From a bacterium (GTDB lineage Archaea; Thermoplasmatota; Thermoplasmata; Lutacidiplasmatales; UBA184): DNA of 34,411 bases. Positions 19,728 through 27,492 of the stretch are shown one piece after another. The notes under the pieces are model-generated. The model was given only the letters and a program-made list of their open reading frames with translations, searched no databases and had not been told where the DNA came from. The stretch covers positions 1 through 34,411 of the forward strand of contig DAIDCO010000018.1 of NCBI GenBank assembly GCA_027309555.1, read 5' to 3'. Both the position numbers and the translations under genes were made by a program. Numbering within the stretch: the first letter of the stretch is position 1; each line of letters opens with the position of its first letter.

Positions 19728-19741
19728 CCGAACCGGTTCGG
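19728..19741. promoter_or_regulatory. Perfect palindrome CCGAACCGGTTCGG upstream of DUF2249 gene
   Basis: 14-bp perfect inverted repeat about 8 bp upstream of a TATA-like tttagttcatg. Confidence 0.55.
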
Positions 19742-19793
19742 CACGGCCTTTAGTTCATGATCCTGCCTCCATCGTTTGGGGAGCTCGGAATAG

Positions 19794-20117
19794 ATGGTCG
19801 AGACCGAGCGCAGTGGTGCTGCCGCCGGCGCCCAAGGGGAGCGAGGCGAACGCGGGGAGAGCGTGCTGGATGTTCGGAGTGTGAGCCCTCCCGAGCGCCA
19901 TTCTCGCATCTTCGGAACGTTTACCCATCTCGAACCCGGGGGGTCCTTCGTACTGGTGAACGACCACGACCCGAAGCCGCTCTTCTACCAATTCCAGGCA
20001 GAGTACACGGGCCGGTTCTCCTGGGAGTATCTAGAACAGGGACCGAAAACCTGGCGCGTGCGAATCGGAAAGCAGAAATCTAGCGTGGAGGCGACGCCCC
20101 TCCCCACGATTCCCTGA
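19794..20117 (+). CDS. DUF2249 domain protein
   Basis: LDVRSVSPPERHSRIFGTFTHLEPGGSFVLVNDHDPKPLFYQFQAEYTGRFSWEYLEQGPKTWRVRIGK is a full-length DUF2249 match by eye. Confidence 0.88.
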   Translation: MVETERSGAAAGAQGERGERGESVLDVRSVSPPERHSRIFGTFTHLEPGGSFVLVNDHDPKPLFYQFQAEYTGRFSWEYLEQGPKTWRVRIGKQKSSVEATPLPTIP

Positions 20118-20174
20118 CATCCAGGTAGGGCACCGTCGGTAAGATCTTCCGTCGGGCCGTGCGTAGGATTCCCC

Positions 20175-21290
20175 GTGGTAACGCGGTCTCGGGTCCGATT
20201 CCTCGGGATCGGCCTGTCCTTCGTCGCGTTGGGGCTGGGCCTATGGGCGGCGCTGTGGTTGGTCGGCTGGCCGATCCCGCTCCTCAATGCTTCGCTACCG
20301 GACGCCCACGGCGTTCTCATGGTGAACGGAGTCCTGGCAAGCCTCATCGGTATCGAGCGCGCGGTGGCGCTTAGCCGTCGAGCATTCTATCTCGCTCCTG
20401 TGCTCACCGCCGTCGGGGCGATTTCGCTCGCGCTGAGCGGGGACGCCGCCCTCGCCTTTGCCCTCGTCAGCGGCGGTGCGGCGATTCTCCTTCTGATGTT
20501 CCTGGTGATCCTCCGTCGCCAGCCGGCGCTCTACACCGCGGTCCAAGTCCTAGGAGCCGCCTGCCTCGTCGGAGGCAACGTCCTCGGTTGGAGCGGGCTC
20601 GACATTCCCTTCCTGATCCCGTGGTGGGGTTCCTTTCTGGTCCTCCTGCTTGCCGCCGAGAGACTGGAGCTAAGCCGGGTGCTCCGCCTGGACCTGCTCG
20701 ACAAACTCACCTTCGCCGTCTCGGCGTCGCTCAGTCTGATCGGCTGCGTCCTATCGACCGTCTGGTTCGCATCGGGATTCTTGGTGGCGGCCTCCGGGTG
20801 GGTCCTCCTTGCGGTCTGGCTCTTGTTCCACGACATCGCGTACCGGAACCTGTCACGGCCCGGCCTTCCCCGATTCACGGCGTTCTGTTTGCTGAGTGGC
20901 TATGCGTGGCTCCTTCTGGGGGGAGCAATCGTGTACCTCGAGGGCGGCAACCTCCTCGGATGGGAGTACGACGCGGGCCTCCACGCCCTCTTCCTGGGCT
21001 TCGTCCTCTCCCTCGTATTCGCCCATGCTCTGATCATTCTGCCCGCCGTTCTGGGAAAGAAGCTCCCGTTCCATCGCGTCCTGTACGTTCCGGTCTCGCT
21101 CCTGTACCTCTCGCTGTCCGTTCGCATCTATGCCGACTTCGGGGTCCTTCCGGTCCTGCGCGAGTGGGCCGGCCTGTTCAACGTGGTGGCAATCGTCCTC
21201 TTCGGTGCGCTCCTACCCGCGATCTCCCTCTACGATCGCTCTTGGTTCCGGCGGGCCTACGGCACGGATGCATCGACGTTCTACCCCTGA
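20175..21290 (+). CDS. Polytopic membrane protein (about 10-12 TM), possibly NnrS-like
   Basis: 371 aa; hydrophobic throughout; DAHGVLMVNGVLASLIGIERAVAL and GLHALFLGFVLSLVFAHALIILPAV contain intramembrane His resembling NnrS/heme-copper membrane proteins. Confidence 0.6.
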   Translation: MVTRSRVRFLGIGLSFVALGLGLWAALWLVGWPIPLLNASLPDAHGVLMVNGVLASLIGIERAVALSRRAFYLAPVLTAVGAISLALSGDAALAFALVSGGAAILLLMFLVILRRQPALYTAVQVLGAACLVGGNVLGWSGLDIPFLIPWWGSFLVLLLAAERLELSRVLRLDLLDKLTFAVSASLSLIGCVLSTVWFASGFLVAASGWVLLAVWLLFHDIAYRNLSRPGLPRFTAFCLLSGYAWLLLGGAIVYLEGGNLLGWEYDAGLHALFLGFVLSLVFAHALIILPAVLGKKLPFHRVLYVPVSLLYLSLSVRIYADFGVLPVLREWAGLFNVVAIVLFGALLPAISLYDRSWFRRAYGTDASTFYP

Positions 21291-21359
21291 GGCGTTGTTG
21301 CGGGGACGCCACCCCCGTCCGTCGTCCCGTCCGCGCACCCGGGCCGTCGATCGTGCTCC

Positions 21360-22058
21360 TCACGCGTAGCCGAACTCGCGCTTGGCCGTCGGACTCATCC
21401 GCTCGGGTCCCCAAGGAGGGTCCCATACAACGGAGACGTCTACCTCGCGAATGCCCGAAATCGATTCGGCGACGGCCTTGACCTCGTCCTGGAGCATGCC
21501 AGCGACCGGGCAGCCGGGACTGGTCATAGTCATCCGGATGTGCACTTTGCCTTCTTCCCCCCACTCGATACCGTAGATCAGGCCCAGGTCCAGGATGTTG
21601 ACGGGGATTTCCGGGTCATAGACCCGACGGAGGGCGAACCGAAGCTGGCGTTCTCGTTCGCCCTCGGTGCGGTCGGCCTCCGCGGAGTCCGCCGGCAGGG
21701 GAGCCGGTGGCGAGCCTCCGGCCGCTTGGTTCGAGGAAGAGGGGGCCGCGAGCGGGGTACTGAAGCGGGGGCCCGAGATCGAAAAGCCGCCCCCGGGAGA
21801 ACCCTCGTGAAAATCGACGGTCGCGCCATCGAGATAGAGCTGGCTGGCCGCGTCCACGACCAACCGTGCCGGGCCAAGATCGAGGATTTCATCTCCGGAC
21901 CGCGGCGTCGATAGGTACATTTGCGCCGTCGGATGCACCCCCGGGAGAACCCCCAGCCGCACGATCGTGGGGGATTGATTCCGGGCGATGGCCGCCCCCA
22001 TCGCCTCCCGGGCTGCTGGCGTGACCTCCAAACGGAAAGCGACCCCTTGGTTGGCCAC
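21360..22058 (-). CDS. Fusion of a cysteine-less HesB/IscA-like domain with a SufT/MIP18 (DUF59) domain
   Basis: GTG start at 22058. N-terminal FRLEVTPAAREAMGAA...IVRLGV...DLGPARLVVDAASQLYLDGATVDFHEGSPGGGFSIS (A-type fold pattern); C-terminal LRRVYDPEIPVNILDLGLIYGIEW...MTMTSPGCPVAGMLQDEV...VSVVWDPPWGPERMSPTAKREFG (DUF59). Confidence 0.82.
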   Translation of the reverse strand: MANQGVAFRLEVTPAAREAMGAAIARNQSPTIVRLGVLPGVHPTAQMYLSTPRSGDEILDLGPARLVVDAASQLYLDGATVDFHEGSPGGGFSISGPRFSTPLAAPSSSNQAAGGSPPAPLPADSAEADRTEGERERQLRFALRRVYDPEIPVNILDLGLIYGIEWGEEGKVHIRMTMTSPGCPVAGMLQDEVKAVAESISGIREVDVSVVWDPPWGPERMSPTAKREFGYA

Positions 22059-22105
22059 GGTTCCTCGTGGACACGGATAGCCGGGACTTGAATTACAAGC
22101 CCTCG

Positions 22106-22119
22106 CCGAATCGTTTCGG
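22106..22119. promoter_or_regulatory. Inverted repeat CCGAATCGTTTCGG between divergent HesB-SufT and ferredoxin genes
   Basis: CCGAA-N4-TTCGG (extended CGCCGAA-TCGT-TTCGGCG, 22104-22121), about 7 bp upstream of a TATA-like TGTAATTCA on the minus strand. Confidence 0.5.
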
Positions 22120-22232
22120 CGCTCCAGTGAAAACGGTCGGATGCCCTCGGTTTCCCAGCGTACCTGCGCGACTACCACGATCTCGGCCGCTGCCACTTCA
22201 GCTGCCGGCCCGGGTCGTGAAGGAGAGGCCCA

Positions 22233-22507
22233 GTGGACGTCAAGGCCCAGATCGAGAAGTGCAAGGGTTGCCGCCATTGCTTCGATGTCTGTCCCGTGAA
22301 CGTGTTCGTCATGCACCCCCGCACCGAGGTTCCCGACGTCGTGGGCGACACCGAGGTCGCTGCGAATTTCCGATTCCGCACGGAGAAGTCCGTGGTCGGG
22401 CACGGCCCCGATTGCATTCTATGTAACGCCTGCCGGACGGAATGTGAGGGTCGTGCATCACGATATGGGGCGACGAGGGGAAAACCTACCAGTCGACGTA
22501 CAAGTGA
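22233..22507 (+). pseudogene. 2[4Fe-4S] ferredoxin with an apparent single-base frame disruption near the C-terminus
   Basis: GTG start; CKGCRHCFDVCPVNVF and CILCNACRTEC; at 22455-22459 the frame must shift by -1 (or one base is missing) to continue RAITIWGDEGKTYQSTYK* ending at 22507. Confidence 0.75.
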
Positions 22508-22896
22508 GGGGACGGGTTCCTCTGGAACGGAGGACCCGGCTCACATCGACGCGAGCGCGGTCGTCTCCGGAGCGGGGCCGCACACCGCGTGGAGAGAACG
22601 CTCCCGGGTCGGTCCGTCGGACCGGTTCGCCCGTCTCGAGACACGTTCGCCGCGCTTCGCCCGCCTGGGGCTCGGAACAGCAGGGGCGGAACCGGCGCCG
22701 ACCCGCCGAAGAGCAATAGGGCACGTGAATCGATCGGGCCAACCCGGAGAAACCTGGTGGGCTGGCTCCGGCCGGAGAGGGCAGGGGTCGCACGTTCGAA
22801 CTACACCTGCGAGCTCCGACGCCATCGTTCCCCGACAGCGGCCGGAAGATCCCGGGGGTTCTGCGATCTATTCCCCCAAACCGGGGTCTCGTCGGC

Positions 22897-23412
22897 TCAC
22901 CGCCCGACGCCCTGGTTTGGTCGCAAACTCTTCCCGCGCGAGAGCCCAGGAGAGACGACGAACGGCGCCACCGTCACCAGCACCCCGATTCCGAAGAGCA
23001 GGAATGAGAACGCCACCAGCCCCAAAAAGAGGTCCGGCGCGACGGTTCCGGGCGCAAGCAGGGCGGTAGTGAGGAATCCGATGAGGCCGACATTCGCGAG
23101 CAGGAAATGAAGCCGTGGGAGATACCGGGGTCGCAGCCAGACCCCCAAGTGGTTTGGGACGATGATGACGCTCACGCCGCTGATCATCATCCCCACCCAG
23201 CCAAAGAGGCCGATCAGGTCCCGGTCGTCGTACACGCGACTTGGGACCGAGGCCGCCCCCCCGAGCGACGACACTATACTCGTGACGATCACCATTATGC
23301 CGACGACGAGCAGGTAGCCCGTGCCGGACGCGATGAGCGTGAGGCCATCCCATGACGGAACCGCGCGCCGTGCGGGGGCGTTCCCGGCGGCCGGGAGCAC
23401 GACCGGATTCAA
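22897..23412 (-). CDS. Membrane protein (about 4 TM), heme-copper oxidase/NnrS-like flavour
   Basis: YLLVVGIMVIVTSIVSSLG...LIGLFGWVGMMISGVSVIIVPNHLGVWLRPRYLPRLHFLLANVGLIGF; TTG start in TTGA overlap with the hemerythrin gene stop. Confidence 0.65.
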   Translation of the reverse strand: MNPVVLPAAGNAPARRAVPSWDGLTLIASGTGYLLVVGIMVIVTSIVSSLGGAASVPSRVYDDRDLIGLFGWVGMMISGVSVIIVPNHLGVWLRPRYLPRLHFLLANVGLIGFLTTALLAPGTVAPDLFLGLVAFSFLLFGIGVLVTVAPFVVSPGLSRGKSLRPNQGVGR

Positions 23413-24290
23413 GGACTATCCGCGGCGATGGGGTCGCAGCAGCTACAGGGTTCCGGTTCCTCCGCCGCGGTCGGGGCCGGCTTGGCAGCCCCTCCGTCCT
23501 TCCGCGCCCCCACCGCGACCTCCCCGTTAGCGGCGCTCTTATCGCGATGATCCGGACACCAGAAATCGGCTCGCAGGCGGATGGTCCCGTCCTCGCCGAG
23601 GACCGCCGGTACCGAGACCACCTGCCAACCCGCAGGCACTTCGATTCCCAACCGGCCGTCGTTCGAGGGCACCACGTGCGACTCGGCGACCGCCGGGCAG
23701 TTCTCTCGACGGCACCGCACGGTCAAGGCGTGGCCGGGGGTGCCGGGAGCGCGCGCGAGGTACCGCTCGATATGTCCCTCCAAATCCGTGACCTCGGAGG
23801 CGGTTTGGCGGAAGGCGGTGCTCACGCGAGCCGCTGCCTCGTCCGGGAGAGCCGCTCTGAGGCAAGAAAGAGGGTAATCCTTCTCGAACGCCATGCTCTC
23901 GTGGTCCTTCTGCGTGAGCTCGGCGAGCGCTTGGGAGAGCCGGGATCGTGAGCCGCGGGGGTCGGATACGAAGTCCTTCAAGGCGGCCCGAGCGCGGTCA
24001 GTCTGGTCGCGCTCGACCCGGTGATCGTCGGTGATCGCGTCGAGATGCGGAAAACAACCGGCCATGGCCACGGAGCGCGCCTCGGGCTGGAGGTCGCGGT
24101 CGACCCGCCCGGCGTGGACCCTCCGATATTGCTCGAGGAGGCGAAGCCCCTCGGCGATCTCCCCGGGCGGTGGGTTTCTGCCTTCCTTCAGCTCGATGGC
24201 CGTCGCTGCAAGACGCTCGATCAGTCGCTCCGCGACATCGTTCTCGTGCTCGAGTTCGTCGAGTGGGTCCTGGGATTCGATCGTCATCAT
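23409..24290 (-). CDS. Hemerythrin (HHE) domain protein with Cys-rich C-terminal extension
   Basis: LDELEHENDVAERLIERL, YRRVHAGRVDRDL, HLDAITDDHRVERDQTD, LTQKDHESMAFEKDYP; C-terminal CRRENC, WCPDH and CSCC. Confidence 0.8.
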   Translation of the reverse strand: MMTIESQDPLDELEHENDVAERLIERLAATAIELKEGRNPPPGEIAEGLRLLEQYRRVHAGRVDRDLQPEARSVAMAGCFPHLDAITDDHRVERDQTDRARAALKDFVSDPRGSRSRLSQALAELTQKDHESMAFEKDYPLSCLRAALPDEAAARVSTAFRQTASEVTDLEGHIERYLARAPGTPGHALTVRCRRENCPAVAESHVVPSNDGRLGIEVPAGWQVVSVPAVLGEDGTIRLRADFWCPDHRDKSAANGEVAVGARKDGGAAKPAPTAAEEPEPCSCCDPIAADSP

Positions 24291-24537: not shown

Positions 24538-25173
24538 GTGAGCGTCTGTCGACTCCGTGTTCCGTTGCCGGACTCCGCTTGGATAGCTCGCTTCTCCCGG
24601 GAGCATCCGGGGGTGACCATCGAGATGCTCAGCCGCCTTGACCTTGGAACGCGTAGGAGCCTCAGCGAAGTGCGCCTCTGCGTTCCCCAACCCGGCGATT
24701 GGGTCGGCGAGCTGCGGGCAGTCGACCAAGTGGAGAAGGTCGAGCTTCTCACTTCGGGACCCTCGGGGCTCCGACTGCGAGTGATCCACCGAACCTCGCC
24801 GTTCGTGCCGATCTTCCGGGCGCTTCTCCTCATGCGACGCCTTCCCTTCACGATCCGGGACGGCGAGGCATCGTGGACGGTCATCGCTTCGGAGGACAAA
24901 GTCCACAAGCTCCTCGACCGGCTGAGAGAGAAAGTTCCCGGTGTGGTCCTCGAGTCGGTCCGGCACTCCGACGATCCGACCGGTGCGGAGATCCTCACTC
25001 GCCGTCAGGCCGAACTTTTCCAACGGGCGCGGGCGGCGGGATACTTTGAGGTTCCCCGGAAGATCACACTTACCCGTCTCGCCGACCGCGAGCGGATGGC
25101 GGTATCCAGCCTTTCCGAAGCTCTGGCCATCGTGGAGAAGAAGCTGCTTGAAGGCTGGCCGTCGGGGGGTTAG
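24538..25173 (+). CDS. HTH_10 (bacterio-opsin activator/NarO-like) transcriptional regulator
   Basis: C-terminal LTRRQAELFQRARAAGYFEVPRKITLTRLADRERMAVSSLSEALAIVEKKLLEG is a classic HTH_10. GTG start at 24538. Confidence 0.85.
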   Translation: MSVCRLRVPLPDSAWIARFSREHPGVTIEMLSRLDLGTRRSLSEVRLCVPQPGDWVGELRAVDQVEKVELLTSGPSGLRLRVIHRTSPFVPIFRALLLMRRLPFTIRDGEASWTVIASEDKVHKLLDRLREKVPGVVLESVRHSDDPTGAEILTRRQAELFQRARAAGYFEVPRKITLTRLADRERMAVSSLSEALAIVEKKLLEGWPSGG

Positions 25174-27461: not shown

Positions 27462-27492
27462 CCCCCGAACTTGTTCGGGGGAGGATGTCAAC
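27462..27492 (+). ncRNA. Probable 3' end of TnpB omegaRNA/reRNA scaffold (5' boundary not determinable)
   Basis: CCCCCGAAC-TT-GTTCGGGGG-AGGATGTCAAC hairpin at the right end, matching the usual location and shape of IS605-type scaffold 3' ends. Confidence 0.6.

Follow-up and report, generated by a model that had tools for sequence, protein, structure and literature searches.

The closest described system is the denitrification operator of the haloarchaeon Haloferax mediterranei, a NarO-associated cis element with the consensus CGAAYATDKTYG, represented at nor and nos by CGAACATGTTCG; haloarchaeal sites of this type lie 66-79 nt before the ATG of nirK, nor, and nos, and mutation of the motif lowers nos and nor promoter activity in H. 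mediterranei (PMC10062603). In this organism, the published list of motif-bearing genes includes two for DUF2249 proteins and, within the nirK cluster, one for a bacterioopsin-type activator; two motif-bearing haloarchaeal DUF2249 genes are induced under denitrification, and the protein that binds the motif is described as undisclosed (PMC11218638). A second parallel comes from the NO-response regulons of bacteria (NnrR/DNR/NsrR type), which have the same set of genes: in Aminobacter, DUF2249 adjoins NnrS, and in Azospirillum it lies close to Crp/Fnr and hemerythrin genes. They use another regulator family and another operator, however, and CGAA-N4-TTCG was found upstream of bacterial DUF2249 genes at none of the six loci checked. 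The archaeal regulators NarO and DmsR carry four conserved N-terminal cysteines, CXnCXCX7C.

The window, the whole stretch of 34,411 nucleotides analysed here, comes from an uncultured archaeon and contains a nitric-oxide/iron-sulfur island with two operator sites of the form CCGAA-N4-TTCGG. An exact search placed one site before the DUF2249 gene and one before the HesB-SufT gene, as the original prediction had claimed, with 7 bp between site and TATA-like element at both promoters, where 7-8 bp had been proposed. The features are as follows (coordinates, strand, description).

19728-19741, plus: operator 1, CCGAACCGGTTCGG, a perfect palindrome upstream of the DUF2249 gene; exact match, present at 17 of 17 family orthologues, 21.0 bits
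19749-19756, plus: TATA-like element TTTAGTTC, 7 bp past operator 1; CTTTAGTTC is kept in two close relatives
19794-20117, plus: DUF2249 protein, 107 aa, gene 1 of the operon; PF10006, E 1e-32
20175-21290, plus: 371-aa membrane protein with a heme-copper oxidase/NO-reductase-like fold in a structure model
21360-22058, minus: HesB-SufT type Fe-S assembly protein, 232 aa; PF01883
22090-22098, minus: TATA-like element TTGTAATTC, 7 bp past operator 2; CTTGTAAT is kept in genomes G033 and G051
22106-22119, minus: operator 2, CCGAATCGTTTCGG, reading CCGAAACGATTCGG in the SufT direction; exact match, 21.8 bits
22897-23412, minus: small membrane protein of the island; one orthologue is a weak COX1 match
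23409-24290, minus: weakly hemerythrin-like island protein; PF01814 below cut-off, orthologues in most islands
24538-25173, plus: HTH_10 regulator, proposed reader of the operator; PF04967, E 5e-10
27465-27478, plus: third exact motif, outside the regulon; a hairpin at the end of a TnpB insertion element, with near-identical flanks at loci L002 and L019

The window sites share with the haloarchaeal motif the inverted repeat CGAA-N4-TTCG at fixed spacing and the position, about 50-80 nt before start codons and upstream of TATA. In particular, the 5′ ends of the operators lie 66 nt (DUF2249) and 61 nt (SufT) before the start codons, compared with 66-79 nt in haloarchaea, and the systems are also alike in target types (DUF2249 and nirK) and in having HTH_10 genes in the clusters (PMC10062603, PMC11218638). 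The haloarchaeal CGAA-N4-TTCG cited in the original prediction is right in substance when set against the published CGAAYATDKTYG and the nor/nos sites (PMC10062603). Differences include the centre, mostly MCGK here versus YATR-like in haloarchaea, the added flanking C and G, and the targets; those of the window are DUF2249, SufT, and the protein with the NO-reductase fold, and no complete denitrification pathway was seen. The full published consensus is not matched in the window, the centres of the two operators, CCGG and TCGT (ACGA in the SufT direction), not fitting YATD.

On haloarchaeal plasmids, the site precedes DUF2249 in 8 of the 10 species examined. Its position is about ATG-50 to -57 for the plasmid-borne genes of Halomontanus, Halobaculum, Haloarcula, Halorussus, two Halomarina, and Salinibaculum. 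Haloferax larsenii has one site 105 nt ahead of the gene set containing DUF2249 and another 92 nt ahead of nirK; no site precedes DUF2249 in Halobacterium hubeiense or isolate XH8. In Halomarina sp. BND7, CGAA-N4-TTCG precedes the DUF2249 gene, and nirK, DUF2249, and an HTH_10 gene (NKI68_RS19705) are consecutive, the HTH_10 product having ~30% identity to the window regulator over nearly its full length. This identity is low, and Cys3 is not conserved in the homologue of Halobacterium hubeiense.

The window regulator resembles NarO and DmsR in its HTH_10 DNA-binding domain, with 37% identity over 54 residues to a NarO-like protein of Haloferax larsenii, but does not align beyond the HTH, has one conserved cysteine, and lacks the DmsR_N domain (PF24277). 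Its identification as NarO was rejected because both that domain and the four-cysteine motif are absent. A search for PF24277 found no match in any of the 61 genomes of the family, with a positive Haloferax volcanii control, so that, unlike the haloarchaeal system, the family has no NarO/DmsR-type sensor. With the motif present in the family and the domain absent from all 61 genomes, the operator is common to this family and haloarchaea and the NarO sensor is not; for this reason, the operator is best read as a variant of the haloarchaeal denitrification operator.

Conservation within the family argues strongly for an operator common to both promoters, as had been predicted. A DUF2249 orthologue is present in 17 of the 61 genomes, and CGAA-N4-TTCG lies upstream of it in all 17, the opposite of the lack of conservation in relatives that would have spoken against the prediction; the site also precedes SufT in genomes G033, G051, G002, G008, G014, G007, and G020. 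We fetched 20 island stretches, called genes by a codon model, and retained a non-redundant set of 19 loci (the window and 18 others). In this set, 35 N4 sites are intergenic and 11 coding, at a coding density of 80% (binomial p = 3e-16), and a start codon follows within 150 bp for 32 of the 35 intergenic sites. The spacing is specific: intergenic counts are 35 for N4 and 0-5 for each of the spacings 0-3 and 5-10. Motif density is 0.37 per kb in DUF2249 loci versus 0.05 per kb in 21 other SufT-type loci retrieved by the same procedure (L046-L066). Among sites the arms are conserved and the centre is variable, giving over 33 promoters the consensus C-CGAA-MCGK-TTCG-G, with a TATA-like A+T peak 9-13 bp past the 12-mer that reaches 85% at position 12. 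A weight matrix built from 31 sites of relatives, with the window left out, and scored over all positions of the window (34 kb) ranks the two operators first and second (21.8 and 21.0 bits), the next match, a coding one, scoring 13.1 bits. The window holds 3 exact matches to CCGAA-N4-TTCGG versus 0.10 expected from dinucleotide shuffles, and none of 100 shuffles reaches 3. Among more distant DUF2249 proteins of the class, the motif occurs in 2 of 14 loci, about 1.0-1.5 kb from the DUF2249 match. MCR alpha had no match among the sampled class members.

In the islands, the motif immediately precedes DUF2249, linked SufT-like genes, hemerythrin genes, a gene for an FAD/NAD reductase, and one for a membrane protein, NnrS-like or COX1-like, which is often divergent from DUF2249. 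Genome G015 also has NirK, the copper nitrite reductase (297.6 bits, cut-off 296.3), transcribed away from DUF2249, and the motif occupies the intervening region. In the window, the 371-aa membrane protein is probably co-transcribed with DUF2249; it has no Pfam match, and its model (pLDDT 86) has NO reductase 4xyd as best PDB match (prob 1.00, TMq 0.63, E 0.0099). HesB-SufT combines a C-terminal half of TIGR02945/TIGR03406 with an N-terminal half of TIGR00049 (HesB/IscA type). Judged by position (before DUF2249 in 17 genomes and NirK in G015), the operator would control nitrogen-oxide genes, and the targets taken together point to roles in nitrogen-oxide handling and in the repair of Fe-S centres. 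The ferredoxin gene that adjoins operator 2 (22233-22508) is frameshifted relative to relatives, its C-terminal part, CITIWGDEGKTYQSTYK, lying in a different frame, which indicates that the gene is broken or the assembly wrong there.

We infer that the linked HTH_10 protein acts as an activator at CCGAA-N4-TTCGG, serving a small nitrogen-oxide-stress regulon, and give this reading a probability of roughly 0.7. Most likely, the 24538-25173 product binds as a dimer to the palindrome, immediately ahead of the BRE/TATA region, and the bound dimer would help to bring basal factors to two promoters, one for DUF2249 and the NO-reductase-fold membrane protein and one for HesB-SufT. The regulon so formed would be small and mostly local, dealing with nitrogen-oxide stress and Fe-S repair; its signal may be NO or low oxygen, with the conserved Cys3 as a possible sensor. 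Several observations count against this reading: the own genome (that from which the window comes) has no NirK match, the hemerythrin-like and HTH_10 genes of the window have no exact operator upstream, motif-adjacent HTH_10 regulators fall in several groups of the tree instead of one (haloarchaeal NarO sitting on a very long branch), genome G022 has a 63% identical HTH_10 protein with no motif nearby, and the linked HTH_10 proteins of G007 and G020 are just ~41% identical.

The assignment of the reader follows the gene neighbourhood. The 24538-25173 product has a clear HTH_10 domain (PF04967, 39.5 bits, cut-off 23.1) and a weak BAT match; Foldseek with its model gave no useful PDB match. In 14 of the 17 genomes, DUF2249 and an HTH_10 homologue are at most about 7 kb apart, a conserved linkage that supports the original choice of this gene as the likely controller. 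Linkage is indirect evidence, haloarchaeal islands also hold DtxR- and ArsR-type genes, the own genome encodes a second HTH_10 homologue, and in three genomes (G051, G015, and G023) HTH_10 and DUF2249 are on separate contig stretches; a real operator read by that second HTH_10 protein, or by another HTH protein encoded elsewhere, would accommodate these points. We nonetheless regard such a different reader as unlikely, since HTH_10 is the regulator in nearly all islands of the family, the unlinked HTH_10 genes still adjoin another motif-bearing promoter, and motif and HTH_10 class recur together in haloarchaea (PMC11218638).

Activation by the HTH_10 protein, in preference to repression, is suggested by promoter architecture. 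An archaeal activator is expected to adjoin BRE/TATA. It is on this position, and on the H. mediterranei mutagenesis (PMC10062603), that the activator reading is based. Cys3, the sole invariant cysteine among 20 HTH_10 homologues as against a four-cysteine motif, could sense redox state, and SufT and hemerythrin genes would suit oxidative stress too; the HTH_10-bound site might then repress, or might respond to oxygen or redox state instead of nitrogen oxides. This is improbable, at long odds, given that the site lies upstream of TATA, that equivalent haloarchaeal sites lose activity when mutated (PMC10062603), and that the targets include NirK and an NO-reductase-fold protein.

The own genome (2.04 Mb) contains 19 strict CCGAA-N4-TTCGG sites and 117 CGAA-N4-TTCG sites. 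Even scatter over coding and non-coding DNA had been named as evidence against an operator, and here the two scans diverge: about half of the strict own-genome sites are inside called genes, which makes the motif unimpressive within this genome alone, and the sites of the island loci are mainly intergenic, in favour of the prediction. Because the own-genome sites are mostly coding or mobile-element copies (three strict sites are TnpB insertion-element ends), no regulon is established from the single genome alone; the promoter sites are significant because they are conserved in relatives and not because of own-genome counts. A wider own-genome regulon was rejected: other strict sites, which lie by genes for DUF429, Band 7, HTH_45, and rhodanese proteins, are without relevant neighbours, and no exact site was found in the promoters of four further hemerythrin loci in the own genome. 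The third exact copy in the window, at 27465, on which the original prediction was silent, lies directly downstream of the TnpB gene and scores 12.5 bits with the operator matrix; it was rejected as an operator and belongs to the mobile element, its flanks being repeated at L002 and L019. The alternative that chance, codon usage, or a trace of a mobile element accounts for the motif draws on these coding and TnpB copies and on P-K-I-F-G codons of DUF2249 that spell the motif by accident, and is true for 27465, but is refuted for 19728 and 22106 by the 17/17 conservation, the enrichment at N4 only, and the matrix ranking, leaving it next to no credence overall.

The motif was already known in haloarchaea; new is that it is fixed in a second archaeal family without the NarO sensor domain. 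As a tentative extension, to which we give somewhat less than even odds, CGAA-N4-TTCG may be an old cross-lineage archaeal nitrogen-oxide operator, with DUF2249-linked HTH_10 proteins that lack the NarO sensor as its readers. If so, the bacterioopsin-type regulator of the nirK cluster, and not a NarO, would read the motif in H. mediterranei, and sensor domains would have been swapped over a fixed DNA code. The near-constant HTH_10 neighbour offers a specific candidate for the reader and, with the two promoters, a minimal system, and DUF2249, the NO-reductase-fold protein, and SufT would be tied into one nitrogen-oxide response outside haloarchaea.

Several further occurrences of the motif were observed. 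A hairpin, CCCCCGAA-N4-TTCGGGGG, past TnpB recurs at the other element copies (L002 and L019) and mimics the operator, and the P-K-I-F-G codons within DUF2249 can spell CCGAA-N4-TTCGG (L106:8407, L152:5443, and L164:1538), a trap for genome scans. Genome G060 lacks a DUF2249 match and carries the motif 56 bp ahead of its HTH_10 gene (L115:6043), suggesting that this gene may be autoregulated. Other HTH_10 paralogues, in G003 (L155:6996) and G009 (L156:6545), have the exact haloarchaeal nor/nos site, CCGAACATGTTCGG, 190-390 bp ahead of their starts. In a related subgroup, tandem CGAA-N4-TTCG copies 18 bp apart lie near HTH_10 genes (L095:2302 and 2320; L096:1167 and 1185), possibly representing a different operator layout.
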